From NCBI GenBank assembly GCA_946566685.1, contig CAMNXA010000012.1:1-64000 (forward strand): DNA of 64,000 nt, given 5' to 3'. The notes beneath the pieces were generated by a model. That model made no database searches, was not told the origin of the DNA, and saw only the letters and a list, made by a program, of their open reading frames with translations. Both the position numbers and the translations under genes were made by a program. The stretch's first letter is position 1. Each line of letters starts with the position of its first letter. Source of the stretch: an uncultured Lachnospiraceae bacterium. GTDB lineage: Bacteria; Bacillota; Clostridia; Lachnospirales; Lachnospiraceae. This document shows positions 5,741 through 28,310 of this stretch, piece by piece.

Positions 5741-5814
5741 GTCGCTATAGCTCAGCAGGACAGAGCGACCGCCTCCTAAGCGGTAGGCCGGAGGTTCGAA
5801 TCCTCTTAGCGACG
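5741..5814 (+). tRNA. tRNA-Arg (anticodon CCT)
   Basis: A complete cloverleaf can be folded. The 7-bp acceptor GTCGCTA pairs with TAGCGAC. The D arm contains GCTC...GAGC. The anticodon stem ACCGC/GCGGT holds loop CTCCTAA with anticodon CCT, reading AGG. The T arm is GGAGG-TTCGAAT-CCTCT. CCA is not encoded, so cca (61909) is needed for maturation. The accessory island begins just downstream, and tRNA-Arg genes are frequent integration sites, but no duplicated 3' end was seen. Confidence 0.97.
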
Positions 5815-5817
5815 CTG

Positions 5818-5861: not shown

Positions 5862-6006
5862 ATCTCAGGAGATAATCGGTTGATTGAAATAAAATATGCC
5901 TTTTATGCATGATAAATGATGCAACATAGGTATTAGACATTATAAGATAGCGGATTTACAATATAGGTGTTCCGAAACAGGGGCATCTATATTTTTATTT
6001 TATAGA

Positions 6007-6198
6007 AAGATTTCGCTTGAAATACTGAAGAAATATGAAAGTTGGGGATTGTGCGGTGCAGCAAAGAAGGTTATGGGGGCATGGCAGTATGATGACCAGG
6101 ATATAGAACATCTCAGTATGATCATGACGCTTGACGATATGGGTTTTGACGGCAGTAAAGTGGAAACCTATATGCAGCTTACACTGAAAGGAGCATAA
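6007..6198 (+). pseudogene. Relic of a MerR-like regulator
   Basis: A frame open from about 5920 gives, from 6007, a peptide beginning KISLEILKKYESWGLCG and continuing through MGAWQYDDQDIEHLSMI to MQLTLKGA and a stop. This looks like the helix-turn-helix region of MerR-type regulators found beside flavodoxin genes in Lachnospiraceae. There is no start codon or ribosome binding site. The protein stops about 64 codons later, where family members continue with a helical effector region. Upstream sequence is AT-rich and degenerate. I read it as a truncated remnant of the former local regulator. Confidence 0.5.
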
Positions 6199-6201
6199 GT
6201 T

Positions 6202-6894
6202 ATGGGAATGAAAAAAGGTTTATCAATAATTATGATATCTGTACTGACAATTTCATTGATCGGATATGGGAGCAGTGAAGCAGAAAACGGGGGAGACAGC
6301 ACAGTGGAAAATGAAAATACGCCGGTGCAGACTGATGTGACAGAGGAGATAAATACTGAGCCTGTACAGGATCCGGAATTAACGGAATCAGAGCAGTCAG
6401 CCGCACAAAGTGGAAGCAGTTCCCTGGTTGTTTATTTTTCATGGTCGGGAAATACAGAAAATGTTGCAAATGCCATTGCGGAGCAGACGGGAGCTGATGT
6501 ATTCGAAATCGTTCCAAAGGAGGCTTATATTGATGACTACAACGCGCTTTTGGATATCGCAACCGAAGAAAAAGAAAACGGAGCACGCCCGGCAATTGCA
6601 GGAAACATAGAGGATATTACGCAGTATGACATCATTTATGTGGGTTACCCCAACTGGTGGAGTGATATGCCTATGATACTGTATACTTTTTTCGACAGCT
6701 ATGACCTGTCCGGAAAGACCATTGCACCGTTCTGCACCAGCGGGGGAAGTGGTCTGTCAGGTACGGTAAGCAGCATCAGGGAATTGGAGCCGGAGGCGGA
6801 TGTCCTTGATGGGCTTCATATCGGCAGTTCCGCAGCATCCGATCCGAATCAGGCAGTAAGTGACTGGCTGGAGAGTCTGGGATTTGTGGAGTGA
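6202..6894 (+). CDS. Exported flavodoxin
   Basis: The 230-residue protein has a signal-peptide-like N-terminus (basic KK, then a hydrophobic stretch to about residue 22) and an acidic, threonine-rich linker (about 25-72). A flavodoxin domain covers about residues 75-228. The FMN phosphate loop SWSGNTENVA follows strand VVYF, and YPNWWSDMP and CTSGGSGLSGT form the other FMN-contact loops. Such domains carry low-potential electrons on FMN. The signal resembles a lipoprotein signal, but the lipobox cysteine is replaced by tyrosine (LIGYGSS), so lipidation should be lost. A ribosome binding site AAAGGAG precedes the start. It begins the redox island. Confidence 0.88.
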   Translation: MGMKKGLSIIMISVLTISLIGYGSSEAENGGDSTVENENTPVQTDVTEEINTEPVQDPELTESEQSAAQSGSSSLVVYFSWSGNTENVANAIAEQTGADVFEIVPKEAYIDDYNALLDIATEEKENGARPAIAGNIEDITQYDIIYVGYPNWWSDMPMILYTFFDSYDLSGKTIAPFCTSGGSGLSGTVSSIRELEPEADVLDGLHIGSSAASDPNQAVSDWLESLGFVE

Positions 6895-7031
6895 AATATT
6901 TCACAGCAAGCTGTGGAGAAAGATTGTAAGCACGAAAAAGAGGCAGACCACAAAAATGATTTGCAATGAAGAGCAGGAGAGATGATGACGAGGCGTACGG
7001 AAAGTTAGGGTAATAAGCCAGGAGGAAATTT

Positions 7032-7643
7032 ATGAGAAAATTAGTTGCAAGTTTGGTAGTTCCGGTTATGCTGGTTTCCTTGACAGCCTGTGGCAGCAGT
7101 ACAGTTGAAGATGCAGTACCGACAAAAGAGCCCGTGGTGGCGGAAAGCAGCAATGTATCATCTGTAACAGAGGAGAATGGCACAGAGCCAGAGGAAGTCG
7201 GCAGCACAGATACGGAAACAAAAGAAACTACGGCAGTGGCTAACGAATCCAATCCGGAGGAAACAGACAACGGTACGGAACATACGGAGGATAATACCAT
7301 GAAAATAACAGCAGGGGACACTACATTTACGGCAACGCTTGCAGACAATTCATCCGCAGAGGCTTTGAAGGAACTTCTTGCGGAAGGGCCGCTGACAATC
7401 AGCATGAGCGATTACGCAAGCATGGAAAAGGTGGGACCTATCGGAACGGACTTACCGAGAAACGATGAACAGATTTCCACCGGAGCGGGCGACATTATTC
7501 TGTATCAGGGCAATTCCCTTGTAATCTACTATGATACAAATTCATGGAATTTTACAAGGATAGGAAAGATTGAAAACGTGACGGGAGAGGAACTTCTGGA
7601 TGCGTTTGGCAGTGGGGATGTGACGGTTACGTTTTCTTTATAA
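7032..7643 (+). CDS. Cyclophilin-like fold lipoprotein
   Basis: This 203-residue protein has a classical lipoprotein signal (MRKL, hydrophobic core, lipobox LTAC at about residues 16-19). A low-complexity S/T/E linker to about residue 90 follows, then a compact domain starting MKITAGDTTFTATLADN. The domain contains ALKELLAEGPLTISMSDY, GPIGTDLP, GAGDIILYQGNSLVIYYD and a final GSGDVTVTF, which fits the cyclophilin-like (TM1367/DUF369-type) fold family. These rarely have proven isomerase activity. It is likely anchored to the outer face of the membrane. A strong ribosome binding site (CAGGAGG) precedes it. It shares the island with flavodoxin and FMN reductase. Confidence 0.8.
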   Translation: MRKLVASLVVPVMLVSLTACGSSTVEDAVPTKEPVVAESSNVSSVTEENGTEPEEVGSTDTETKETTAVANESNPEETDNGTEHTEDNTMKITAGDTTFTATLADNSSAEALKELLAEGPLTISMSDYASMEKVGPIGTDLPRNDEQISTGAGDIILYQGNSLVIYYDTNSWNFTRIGKIENVTGEELLDAFGSGDVTVTFSL

Positions 7644-7655
7644 AGTGCACTGGCA

Positions 7656-7739
7656 ATGAGCTTTGACTGGTGCGTTCGGGCGGTTGCATTCTATATCCGC
7701 TTTCGAGGCGGAAAGTGGAAGAATCATCAGTTGATTTAA
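7656..7739 (+). other. Possible short coding remnant (27 codons)
   Basis: A 27-codon frame starting MSFDWCVRAVAFYIRFRGG lies between two island genes, in the same frame as the preceding gene and just after its stop codon. It is rich in W, R and F and looks like the C-terminal tail of a larger protein rather than random DNA, but I cannot name the family. No ribosome binding site is present. An imperfect 8-bp hairpin overlaps it at about 7699-7721. Confidence 0.25.
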
Positions 7740-7810
7740 TATAGGCAGGAGTTCATGATAATACTTGCAAAGCACGAGTGTCATTGTATGAGAAAGGAAT
7801 GGTAAAAAGT

Positions 7811-26168: not shown

Positions 26169-26182
26169 AAAAGGAAAGTACA

Positions 26183-26220
26183 AATCCCTTGAAACTATTT
26201 TTGTTTCAAGGGATTTTTTA
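26183..26220 (+). terminator. Intrinsic terminator of the GH127-ABC operon
   Basis: AAATCCCTTGAAAC pairs with GTTTCAAGGGATTT across a 7-base loop and is followed by further T residues. The 14-bp stem is perfect. Confidence 0.9.
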
Positions 26221-26230
26221 TGAAAAAATA

Positions 26231-26259
26231 TTGCATAAAAAATATAAATAGGGTATAGT
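26231..26259 (+). promoter_or_regulatory. Promoter of the AAA ATPase/nuclease cassette
   Basis: -35 TTGCAT (26231-26236), a 17-bp spacer and -10 TATAGT (26254-26259) lie 50 bp before the ATPase start, immediately after the upstream operon's terminator. The cassette therefore appears to be independently transcribed. Confidence 0.65.
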
Positions 26260-26308
26260 ATATAGTGCCAATAAGACAAATAGGTTCTTAATTTTGGAGG
26301 GAATTCAC

Positions 26309-27586
26309 ATGTTAATAGAATTAATGGCAAAAAATTGCTTTTCCTTTTCAGATGAGATTCGATTTTCCACAAAAGCTGATATGAGAAATAAAAAGTTTTC
26401 ATCCAATGTCCATACAGAGAATAATTTCAATATTTTAAAAACAGTAGGAATTTATGGCCCAAACAATGCAGGAAAGACATGTTTGGTAAAATGTATCCGC
26501 AGTGTCAAGAACATTTTGTTAAATCAAAAACCCCGTATCATGTCCAATATTTTTCAGGAAAGTACAATATGTCAGCTGGGAATTACATTTTTGGAGGAGG
26601 GCAGAGAGTTTGCCTATGAATTTTGGTATGATGATAAAAAGGAAGAATATCCTTATGAAAAGTTTACTGAAATCACAAGAGACCAATATGGAAACGAAAA
26701 AGAAACTGTTTGGCTTTTAAAAGATATCATCAATGGAAATTGCCAATATGGTGACGAAGATCTTTTAAAAATGATGCCGCTTATATCTCAAAATAACCTG
26801 TTGTTTTATTTGGTAGATTCCAGCAAATTCCACCAGCTGGCGGAAATGAAGCGTATTGTTACAAAGTTTGCTTCTAAAATTGATATTGTCAACATGAACA
26901 ATATTCCTTTAAAACGTACCATTAGCATTATGAAAAATCAAAATGATCTTCAAAAAAAAGTCGTGGAGTTCATTAAGAATTCTGATTTATATATGGATGA
27001 TTTTGAATATGTGGATATGGATAAGATTCGTGTAAAAATAGATCCTGACGAGGAAAAGCCAGAGGAAAAGGCTCTTGATATTCCAGAGCAGATTATGGAT
27101 CAGATTCGATTGGTATCCGTTTATAGGGGGATTGCGGTTCCCAGTATACTTTTTGACTCTACGGGAACAAAGAAGATTGCTGCCCTTGCAAGTTATATCA
27201 TAGAGGGGATTGAACAGGGCAGAATTCTTATTGTGGACGAACTGGACAGCAGCATTCACTTTAAATTGACCAGAGCGATAGTTGCCATGTTTAATAATGA
27301 ACTGAATACCAATGCACAGATGATATTTACTGTACATGACATCAATTTAATGGATTGCAAAAAAATGTTCCGTAAAGAGCAGATATGGTTTATTCATAAG
27401 GATGATACCGGCATTTATGTTTATTCTCTGGCAGAGTTTACAGCACAACAGGGGATACGGGATACTACAGATATTATGGAGAAATATCGAAAAGGGGTAT
27501 TAGGCGCTCTGCCGGACCCTGAATTGATTCAATCCTTATTAAGTCTTAAAGGAAATCAGAGGGAGGTGCCAATTGATGGCGAATAA
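26309..27586 (+). CDS. AAA/ABC-type ATPase of a putative defence pair (AbiLi/RloA-like)
   Basis: The 425-residue protein begins MLIELMAKNCFSFSDEIRF, the usual first strand of OLD/SMC-like AAA_15/AAA_21 ATPases. Walker A is GPNNAGKT at about residues 47-54. Walker B is ILIVDELDSS at about 307, with the switch histidine in FTVHDINLMD about 30 residues later. No signal or membrane segment is seen. It overlaps the Toprim/RloB-like gene by 11 bp. ATPase plus Toprim pairs include AbiL, RloAB and PARIS, where the ATPase senses phage and controls the nuclease. Assignment to one named system is inference. The start at 26309 has GGAGGG upstream. Confidence 0.8.
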   Translation: MLIELMAKNCFSFSDEIRFSTKADMRNKKFSSNVHTENNFNILKTVGIYGPNNAGKTCLVKCIRSVKNILLNQKPRIMSNIFQESTICQLGITFLEEGREFAYEFWYDDKKEEYPYEKFTEITRDQYGNEKETVWLLKDIINGNCQYGDEDLLKMMPLISQNNLLFYLVDSSKFHQLAEMKRIVTKFASKIDIVNMNNIPLKRTISIMKNQNDLQKKVVEFIKNSDLYMDDFEYVDMDKIRVKIDPDEEKPEEKALDIPEQIMDQIRLVSVYRGIAVPSILFDSTGTKKIAALASYIIEGIEQGRILIVDELDSSIHFKLTRAIVAMFNNELNTNAQMIFTVHDINLMDCKKMFRKEQIWFIHKDDTGIYVYSLAEFTAQQGIRDTTDIMEKYRKGVLGALPDPELIQSLLSLKGNQREVPIDGE

Positions 27587-28208
27587 GCTTCCTCAGATTT
27601 TTACAGGTAATAAAATATGTATTATATGTGAAGGAGATGAAGAATATGAGTATCTGGAAAAGTTGATATCTTTAGATGTATGGAGTAAAAAATATTGTTT
27701 TCGGTTGGATAATGCTGGAGGAAACGGCAATATTCCGGCGCGGTATCAAGATAAGTTTCAGAATGGCTCATATGATCTGGTTTTAGTATTCTGCGATACA
27801 GATAAAAAACCCTATGAGCAGTATGTAGATATCAAGCGAAAGATTAATGAATTTCACGGGATTGAAAATGCAGCAGACCATGTTATCATATACGGGAATC
27901 CATGTACCATGCAGATTATCATTGAGCACTGGGATGATGTAGTGCTTGGTTCCCACAACAAGAAAAAGAATGCTCCAATTATTTTTACCCTGACAGGTAT
28001 AGAAGCATATAAGGGTAGGGCGGATCAGCGTCAAATGCTATTTTCGAGGATTACCAAAGAAAATTATCAGGAAATGCAGGAGAGGATTAAAAGTTTTCCT
28101 TCTGATGATACAGTGGAAGGAAGCACTAATTTTGGTAAATTTATTGAATATTTTACGATGGATGATAACAAGTGGATACAAATGATTAATAAAGTTTTGG
28201 ATGAGTGA
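27576..28208 (+). CDS. Toprim/RloB-like putative nuclease of the defence pair
   Basis: The 210-residue protein opens with strand KICIICEGDEEYEYLEKL. Its glutamate, and the later VLVFCDTDKKPYEQY with a DxD pair, match the Toprim catalytic pattern (E, then DxD) of RloB/AbiLii-type proteins. A mid-protein IYGNPCTMQIIIEHW block recalls the NPCFExW-like segment of RloB, with the glutamate/tryptophan spacing partly kept. The ATG at 27576 lies inside the ATPase gene and has GGGAGGTG 8 bases upstream. Translation coupling implies a fixed stoichiometry. It would cut nucleic acid when released or activated by the ATPase. Confidence 0.72.
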   Translation: MANKLPQIFTGNKICIICEGDEEYEYLEKLISLDVWSKKYCFRLDNAGGNGNIPARYQDKFQNGSYDLVLVFCDTDKKPYEQYVDIKRKINEFHGIENAADHVIIYGNPCTMQIIIEHWDDVVLGSHNKKKNAPIIFTLTGIEAYKGRADQRQMLFSRITKENYQEMQERIKSFPSDDTVEGSTNFGKFIEYFTMDDNKWIQMINKVLDE

Positions 28209-28263
28209 TATATACTGGAAAATATAAACTATAAGCAATAGGTTATATTTACGGCAATAAACA

Positions 28264-28297
28264 CAACCCCTGAGACAAAAAGTAGTTTCAGGGGTTG
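28264..28297. terminator. Bidirectional hairpin between the nuclease gene and merR
   Basis: CAACCCCTGAGAC pairs with GTTTCAGGGGTTG (one G-U) over an 8-base loop. It sits between two convergent genes. U-rich tails are weak on both strands, so efficiency is uncertain. Confidence 0.6.
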
Positions 28298-28310
28298 CGT
28301 TATGTGCTTT

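Follow-up and report, generated by a model that had tools for sequence, protein, structure and literature searches.

The 64,000-nt stretch of contig CAMNXA010000012.1 (GCA_946566685.1), hereafter the window, raises the question of what a two-gene cassette does between a sugar-import operon and a convergent MerR gene, and of how such a cassette is kept silent. Its first gene (A) encodes an ABC/AAA-type ATPase and its second gene (B) a small Toprim-like protein. We propose that the cassette is probably an abortive-infection module of the AbiL type, in which A would act as keeper and sensor, B would be a toxic Toprim effector, and expression would be under a cassette-specific, perhaps self-imposed, control. 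The cassette bears on the trigger, the target and the silencing of AbiL-type pairs, and it offers a compact, laboratory-sized pair with a precise DNA element for the question of self-regulation. All coordinates are positions in the window.

An AbiLi-type ATPase and a divergent Toprim protein

The initial annotation of this locus, made from the letters alone, had proposed a candidate defence cassette of an ATPase gene and an overlapping Toprim-like gene. Both open reading frames (ORFs) were confirmed, with an 11-bp overlap at 27576-27586, and relatives whose proteins are 51-94% identical keep the same two-gene order, indicating that the layout is more than chance. Gene A was matched by the PADLOC AbiLi profile PDLC02335 (1.4e-63, 213 bits), which places it with the first genes of AbiL pairs, and also by the PADLOC AriA profile (9.8e-21) and Pfam AAA_21 (2.9e-20); four other AbiLi-type proteins scored 253-317 bits on the same AbiLi profile. 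The annotated ATPase motifs, namely GPNNAGKT at residue 50 (Walker A, 26456-26479), VDELD at 309 (Walker B, 27233-27247) and VHD at 342, are present. The ATPase residues are invariant in 24 aligned rows, and a strict motif regular expression fitted 35 of 41 A proteins.

Gene B matched the AbiLii profile PDLC02337 weakly (3.1e-8, 32 bits), as a divergent second gene of an AbiL pair, and all 25 B rows were matched by this model at E-values up to 1. With the Pfam RloB model PF13707, B reached 17.6 bits, under the curated cut-off of 31.5, and a PF13707 search of the own genome returned two other genes over the cut-off and not B. In hhalign, the B profile aligned along the motifs with 25 ORFs drawn from RloB loci in the same bacterial family (one or more of them, including L203, probably in the wrong frame), at a probability of 32% and an E-value of 5e-4; profile comparison with single AbiLii sequences was weaker. 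Therefore, the weak AbiLii score, the sub-cut-off RloB score and the profile comparisons suggest that B is a divergent AbiLii-like protein.

The predicted structure of B showed a Toprim fold, nearest to OLD proteins and GajA in Foldseek. The motifs CEGDEE and FCDTD were found as annotated; E19, E22, E23 and D74 are invariant and position 76 is D or E in the 25 rows (codons of E19, 27630-27632; D74, 27795-27797; D76, 27801-27803). With this modelled fold and the conserved E and DxD/E acids, B can be classed as a putative OLD-type Toprim protein. Sequence searches against solved structures gave nothing informative, and the MvaT silencer was matched by B at 12.9 of 180 bits, a score under the cut-off that was taken as noise. 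The two RloB-family genes of the own genome that exceed the Pfam cut-off lie at G000:C24:34062-34643 and G000:C64:17924-18472, so that this genome may hold three ATPase/Toprim-type systems.

Repeated loss of gene B behind an open gene A

Queries with A retrieved 24 further copies, four of which are also present in other sets. A is open at full length in 22 of them, and eight of these 22 (L137, L140, L143, L145, L147, L151, L152 and L153) lack a whole B, the gene being broken, shortened by an internal deletion or absent; the remaining two (L155 and L156) combine a partial A with a broken or missing B. Queries with B added three copies with A open and B broken (L023, L030 and L031), together with L016 and L017, which are cut by contig ends and have a broken B, and L028 and L029, in which both genes are broken. 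In total, 11 of the 42 A rows combine an open A with a broken or absent B. No broken A was observed among the 32 copies with an intact B and a whole A region; L020 and L015, which have an intact B, stand outside the 32 because a contig end truncates or removes A.

On a tree of the 42 A proteins, the 11 rows without B correspond to 10 changes, at least nine of which are forced by well-supported branches (nine changes for 10 of 41 rows when L153 is left out). The chance that all nine breaks fall in B, judged by gene length and taking breaks as independent, is ~5e-5. These 11 effector-less copies with an open ATPase thus form a natural experiment on which protein is costly, and the one-sided decay points to B as the costly member and to A as tolerated or useful alone.

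Several copies show how B was lost. In L137 (the same copy as L004), an in-frame deletion removes approximately residues 41-80 of B, including D74. Behind A in L147 and L153 no recognisable B was found; A of L153 is open (424 aa), lies on a long branch and has one Walker A letter changed. An exchange of effectors behind A was considered and rejected, since remnants of B follow A where visible, among the matches listed. The ratio of nonsynonymous to synonymous substitution rates (dN/dS) of A was 0.025-0.073 in pairs with a B-less copy and 0.023-0.162 when both copies were whole; it was undefined for three pairs and near saturation for several, and a pairwise value does not single out the branch concerned. 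These values gave no sign that A had relaxed once B was lost, and reflect strong purifying selection in pairs including B-less copies.

The same decay bears on a split OLD- or Gabija-like DNA nuclease, in which A and B would degrade invading DNA directly and the cell would not be stopped. The fold predicted for B is shared with such nucleases, but a shared fold shows no substrate, the cassette lacks a helicase or other partner gene, and repeated loss of B with A kept points to a cost of B. We therefore hold the split nuclease to be quite improbable.

A promoter palindrome that travels with the cassette

The cassette had been annotated with its own promoter, and the TTGCAT-17-TATAGT box recurs in relatives. 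A generic sigma-70 scan did not list it, and its -35 matches at 3/6 positions by our own count; in 37 of 40 copies, the -35 is followed at 16-18 bp by a -10 that matches at 5/6 positions or better. The -35 is overlapped by an inverted repeat, ATTTTTTATG-N11-CATAAAAAAT, into which the T-tract of the sugar-operon terminator extends. This palindrome was present upstream of all 40 A copies whose arms were scored, the right arm at 9/10 or better in 39 and the left arm at 8/10 or better in 36. The scoring left out L026 (A almost identical to that of L025), L029 (A broken), L133 (A identical to that of L014) and L153, whose arms, scored later, gave 9 and 10.

Over 41 relatives, the palindrome averaged 89% identity to the window (lowest 77%), compared with 38% (range, 24-74%) at codon-aligned fourfold-degenerate sites of A; it exceeded the fourfold sites in every row. 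The 12 bases on each side of it are only about one-third to two-fifths identical. When 392 order-level genomes were searched, 10 of 10 places with at most one mismatch lay upstream of this cassette; allowing a second mismatch added three sites before the cassette and six elsewhere, the latter spread over five genomes, and a reversed control pattern gave 12 matches in the 392 genomes. The search hit 13 of the 18 genomes bearing A; of the other five, G241, G285 and G364 carry a palindrome with more mismatches, and G393 and G418 lack the 5' part of A. A single site occurs in the own genome, and in L146 the palindrome lies 227 bp upstream of A. Since the site moves with the two-gene cassette and is nearly absent elsewhere, it would most simply be read by a cassette product.

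Another explanation is that the palindrome serves a host regulator or makes for a strong promoter, for example as an A-tract UP element, and is not an operator of the cassette proteins. It is AT-rich and overlaps the -35, and no DNA-binding domain was found over the cut-off in A or B, as this explanation would have it. However, conservation close to that of the -35 is also seen at letters outside the hexamer, namely the A-tract behind it and, in the left arm, the T and G of RTG, and a host regulon is unlikely because all 10 near-exact sites precede the cassette. We consider this explanation a serious one, to which we give somewhat less than even weight. A search of the open-licence literature found no paper describing self-control or a promoter palindrome for AbiL or PARIS, and an Rfam scan gave nothing above the gathering score.

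Decay of the left arm after loss of B was also considered. Left arms at 7/10 or below occurred in 3 of 10 B-less copies and 1 of 30 others (Fisher p 0.04), and at 6/10 or below in 2 of 10 and 0 of 30 (p 0.06); the idea is weakened by the B-less L153, which keeps a 10/10 arm, and is not claimed. In L135 (G070), the promoter box appears to be tandem-duplicated, with extra half-sites upstream of the -10.

Layout, distribution and insertion site

The features of the locus are collected in Table 1. The terminator before the cassette and the hairpin behind it, both of which had been annotated, were located as inverted repeats; a generic terminator scan of the window listed neither. Both genes have an ATG as best start, and ribosome sites were seen by eye at 26296-26301 (GGAGGG) for A and ~27561-27568 for B.

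Table 1. Features of the cassette and its borders in the window
Feature	Position	Strand	Basis
Intrinsic terminator of the upstream sugar-import operon	26182..26216	+	Arms 26182-26195/26203-26216, 14/14 paired
Candidate operator palindrome, 31 bp, over the -35	26213..26243	.	13-nt arms, 92% complementary
Promoter, -35 TTGCAT 26231-26236, 17-bp spacer, -10 TATAGT 26254-26259	26231..26259	+	Recurs in relatives
Gene A, AbiLi-like ABC/AAA-type ATPase, 425 aa	26309..27586	+	PADLOC AbiLi, Pfam AAA_21, invariant ATPase residues
Gene B, divergent AbiLii-like Toprim protein, 210 aa	27576..28208	+	PADLOC AbiLii, OLD/GajA Toprim fold (model), conserved acids
Hairpin behind the cassette, before the convergent MerR gene; probable terminator	28260..28301	.	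Arms 28260-28276/28285-28301, 17 nt, 88% complementary

A was found in 8 of 77 same-genus genomes and in 18 of the 392 order-level genomes, the own genome included in both counts, and presence in just eight of the 77 ruled out a housekeeping gene. The initial annotation had taken an unrelated housekeeping family, or a core pair whose second protein has no nuclease fold, as a sign against a defence role; the pair is not core, and the fold predicted for B is Toprim. For 20 of 30 loci (two being the same copy), nucleotide similarity to the window begins at 26209-26217, and similarity to the closest relatives stops near 28190-28214. In two same-genus genomes (G061 and G062), the 3' end of the sugar permease gene and its terminator adjoin the MerR gene with no cassette between them, in line with the view that the cassette was inserted.

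Several tRNA genes were observed near this place. The gap in G061 at the cassette position holds a second, diverged tRNA-Arg(CCU) (L090, G061:C22, 1422-1493); tRNA-like ends flank a run of N at the same place in G028 (L092), and in G034 a tRNA-Arg(CCU) directly adjoins the MerR gene. In the window, ~22 kb of mostly metabolic genes and the cassette (5741-28310) lie between a tRNA-Arg(CCU) at 5741-5815 and the MerR gene, forming a variable region beside a tRNA gene. An integrase was not noticed in the ORF list of the window, of which no family scan was made. The tRNA-Arg was not supported as attachment site of the cassette: among the scanned cassette loci only L031 has a tRNA, ~5 kb off.

Carriage by plasmids or phages was rejected. 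No match to B was found in 72,556 plasmid records, 50,697 phage records or viral contigs, and matches to A were remote (24-28% identity in the best 30 of 163 plasmid records; 24-39% in 8 phage records). One IMG/VR contig (L186), which played no part in defining the palindrome, has a 52%-identical A, a B-like ORF and, by eye, the palindrome; its palindrome must differ from the exact pattern, which was unmatched in viral contigs. At 3900-3950 of L186, a second palindrome, TTGCATAC...GTATGCAA, abuts the promoter box, and the gene behind the pair (5862-7799) encodes a 645-aa ATPase protein that by eye resembles a single-chain OLD protein.

Neighbouring genes in relatives

The scan of neighbours covered 93 of 98 ORFs chosen from the surroundings of 20 relatives. 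The matches listed include CBASS-type cyclases (two ORFs, one model), E1-E2, JAB and candidate (PDC) systems, together with many ordinary genes and one phage integrase. In L019, a CBASS-type cyclase lies directly 3' of the pair. Together with the PADLOC matches, the predicted fold of B and the patchy distribution, these defence neighbours of some relatives bear out the annotation as a candidate defence cassette. Four related copies have the same 310-aa protein behind them (85-87% identical; L006 2313-3242, L008 8789-9718, L009 2220-3149 and L010 8794-9723), which is weakly metallo-beta-lactamase-like and is followed by a further small gene, possibly a linked system.

The cassette might instead be a toxin-antitoxin module for addiction or element stability, without a phage role, in which A merely neutralises B. 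Decay of the effector alone with A retained is expected of toxin-antitoxin pairs, the promoter palindrome is bound to the cassette, and AAA-TOPRIM pairs have been tested as toxin-antitoxin systems, those of the AAA-TOPRIM_OLD type from C. algidicarnis and S. agalactiae appearing in a figure of toxicity-neutralisation tests in the available part of the source (PMC10440598). Nevertheless, B is unmatched in the plasmid and phage records, which gives little indication that there is a mobile element to stabilise; the matched family AbiL takes its name from phage abortion, and CBASS-type genes stand beside some copies. Taken together, a toxin-antitoxin module without a phage role is unlikely.

Proposed function and mechanism

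We thus return to the AbiL-type abortive-infection module as the preferred explanation. In an uninfected cell, A, presumably as an ATP-bound oligomer, would keep B inactive. A phage trigger would then alter the nucleotide state or the assembly of A, by which B would be released or activated; B, as a metal-dependent nuclease, would cut nucleic acid needed by the cell (DNA or tRNA), and growth would halt before phage is made. Transcription would start from the promoter with its -35 inside the cassette-specific palindrome, to which a cassette product (A, B or an A-B complex) may bind as a repressor, and consumption of A and B would refill the system, as in toxin-antitoxin operons.

By analogy, the literature on relatives supports a toxin with a keeper, with conflicts. 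AriB of PARIS is presented in the available text of PMC12409363 as a Toprim tRNA nuclease that is sequestered by AriA, the E26A mutant being non-cutting, and AbiLii of F. nucleatum was toxic in E. coli according to the accessible part of PMC3985639.

Several points weigh against the proposed module. As given in that same part of PMC3985639, the F. nucleatum AbiLii was not neutralised by its cognate AbiLi, and AbiEii alone of the tested two-component Lactococcus Abi genes proved toxic in E. coli, which makes the Lactococcus AbiLii non-toxic there. B is weaker than ordinary AbiLii proteins on the AbiLii model, 32 bits against 64 and 89 for those of a Lactococcus prophage and a Psychrobacter plasmid, both of which pass RloB easily. 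Foldseek gave B only weak E-values, the best being 5e-3 and none reaching 1e-3, and lumazine synthases ranked shortly after. As the relatives are mostly drafts or metagenome bins, assembly errors may account for some of the breaks in B and inflate their count, and B is the outer gene of the cassette, exposed to edge deletions; upstream edge deletions of A with an intact B were not seen among the copies examined. Finally, self-repression is a guess, as no DNA-binding domain over the cut-off was found in A or B.

A more far-reaching proposal, which we regard as speculative and rather doubtful, would place the cassette in an AbiL subfamily of Lachnospiraceae and relatives. The ATPase keeper, alone or with the Toprim toxin, would also repress the cassette through the 31-bp palindrome; on sensing phage, the ATPase would free the toxin and open the promoter as well, and ATPase-only survivors would represent standing immunity against the toxin of related cassettes. 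If the ATPase were indeed the repressor, sensing and transcription would be coupled; the open-licence literature yielded no such coupling for the AbiL family.

Comparison with known systems

The initial annotation had named AbiL, RloAB and PARIS as relatives in gene layout; AbiL held up as the nearest, while B gave no match to AriB-type profiles and fell below the RloB cut-off, and by profile the pair was rejected as PARIS or canonical RloB. PARIS (AriA/AriB) likewise consists of two genes for an ABC ATPase and a Toprim protein, and A matches its AriA profile; the AriB profile presumably goes by the name DUF4435. RloB of RloA/RloB is a related Toprim family with which B aligns over the expected motifs, whereas the two RloB genes of the own genome lie elsewhere. 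OLD and Gabija GajA have the Toprim fold nearest to that modelled for B and an ABC-type ATPase partner; in contrast, ATPase and Toprim are separate proteins here, and the cassette has no GajB helicase gene. In the AbiL pairs of Lactococcus prophage proPhi7 and the Psychrobacter plasmid, an AAA_21/ABC ATPase is likewise followed directly by a small Toprim/RloB-like protein, and the AbiLi score of A is similar to theirs (213 bits versus 254 and 317). The cassette differs from these pairs in that B is far from canonical AbiLii/RloB (32 versus 64 and 89 bits), and in its cassette-wide promoter palindrome, none being seen by eye in the proPhi7 promoter. By these profile matches, AbiL is the nearest subtype of the cassette.
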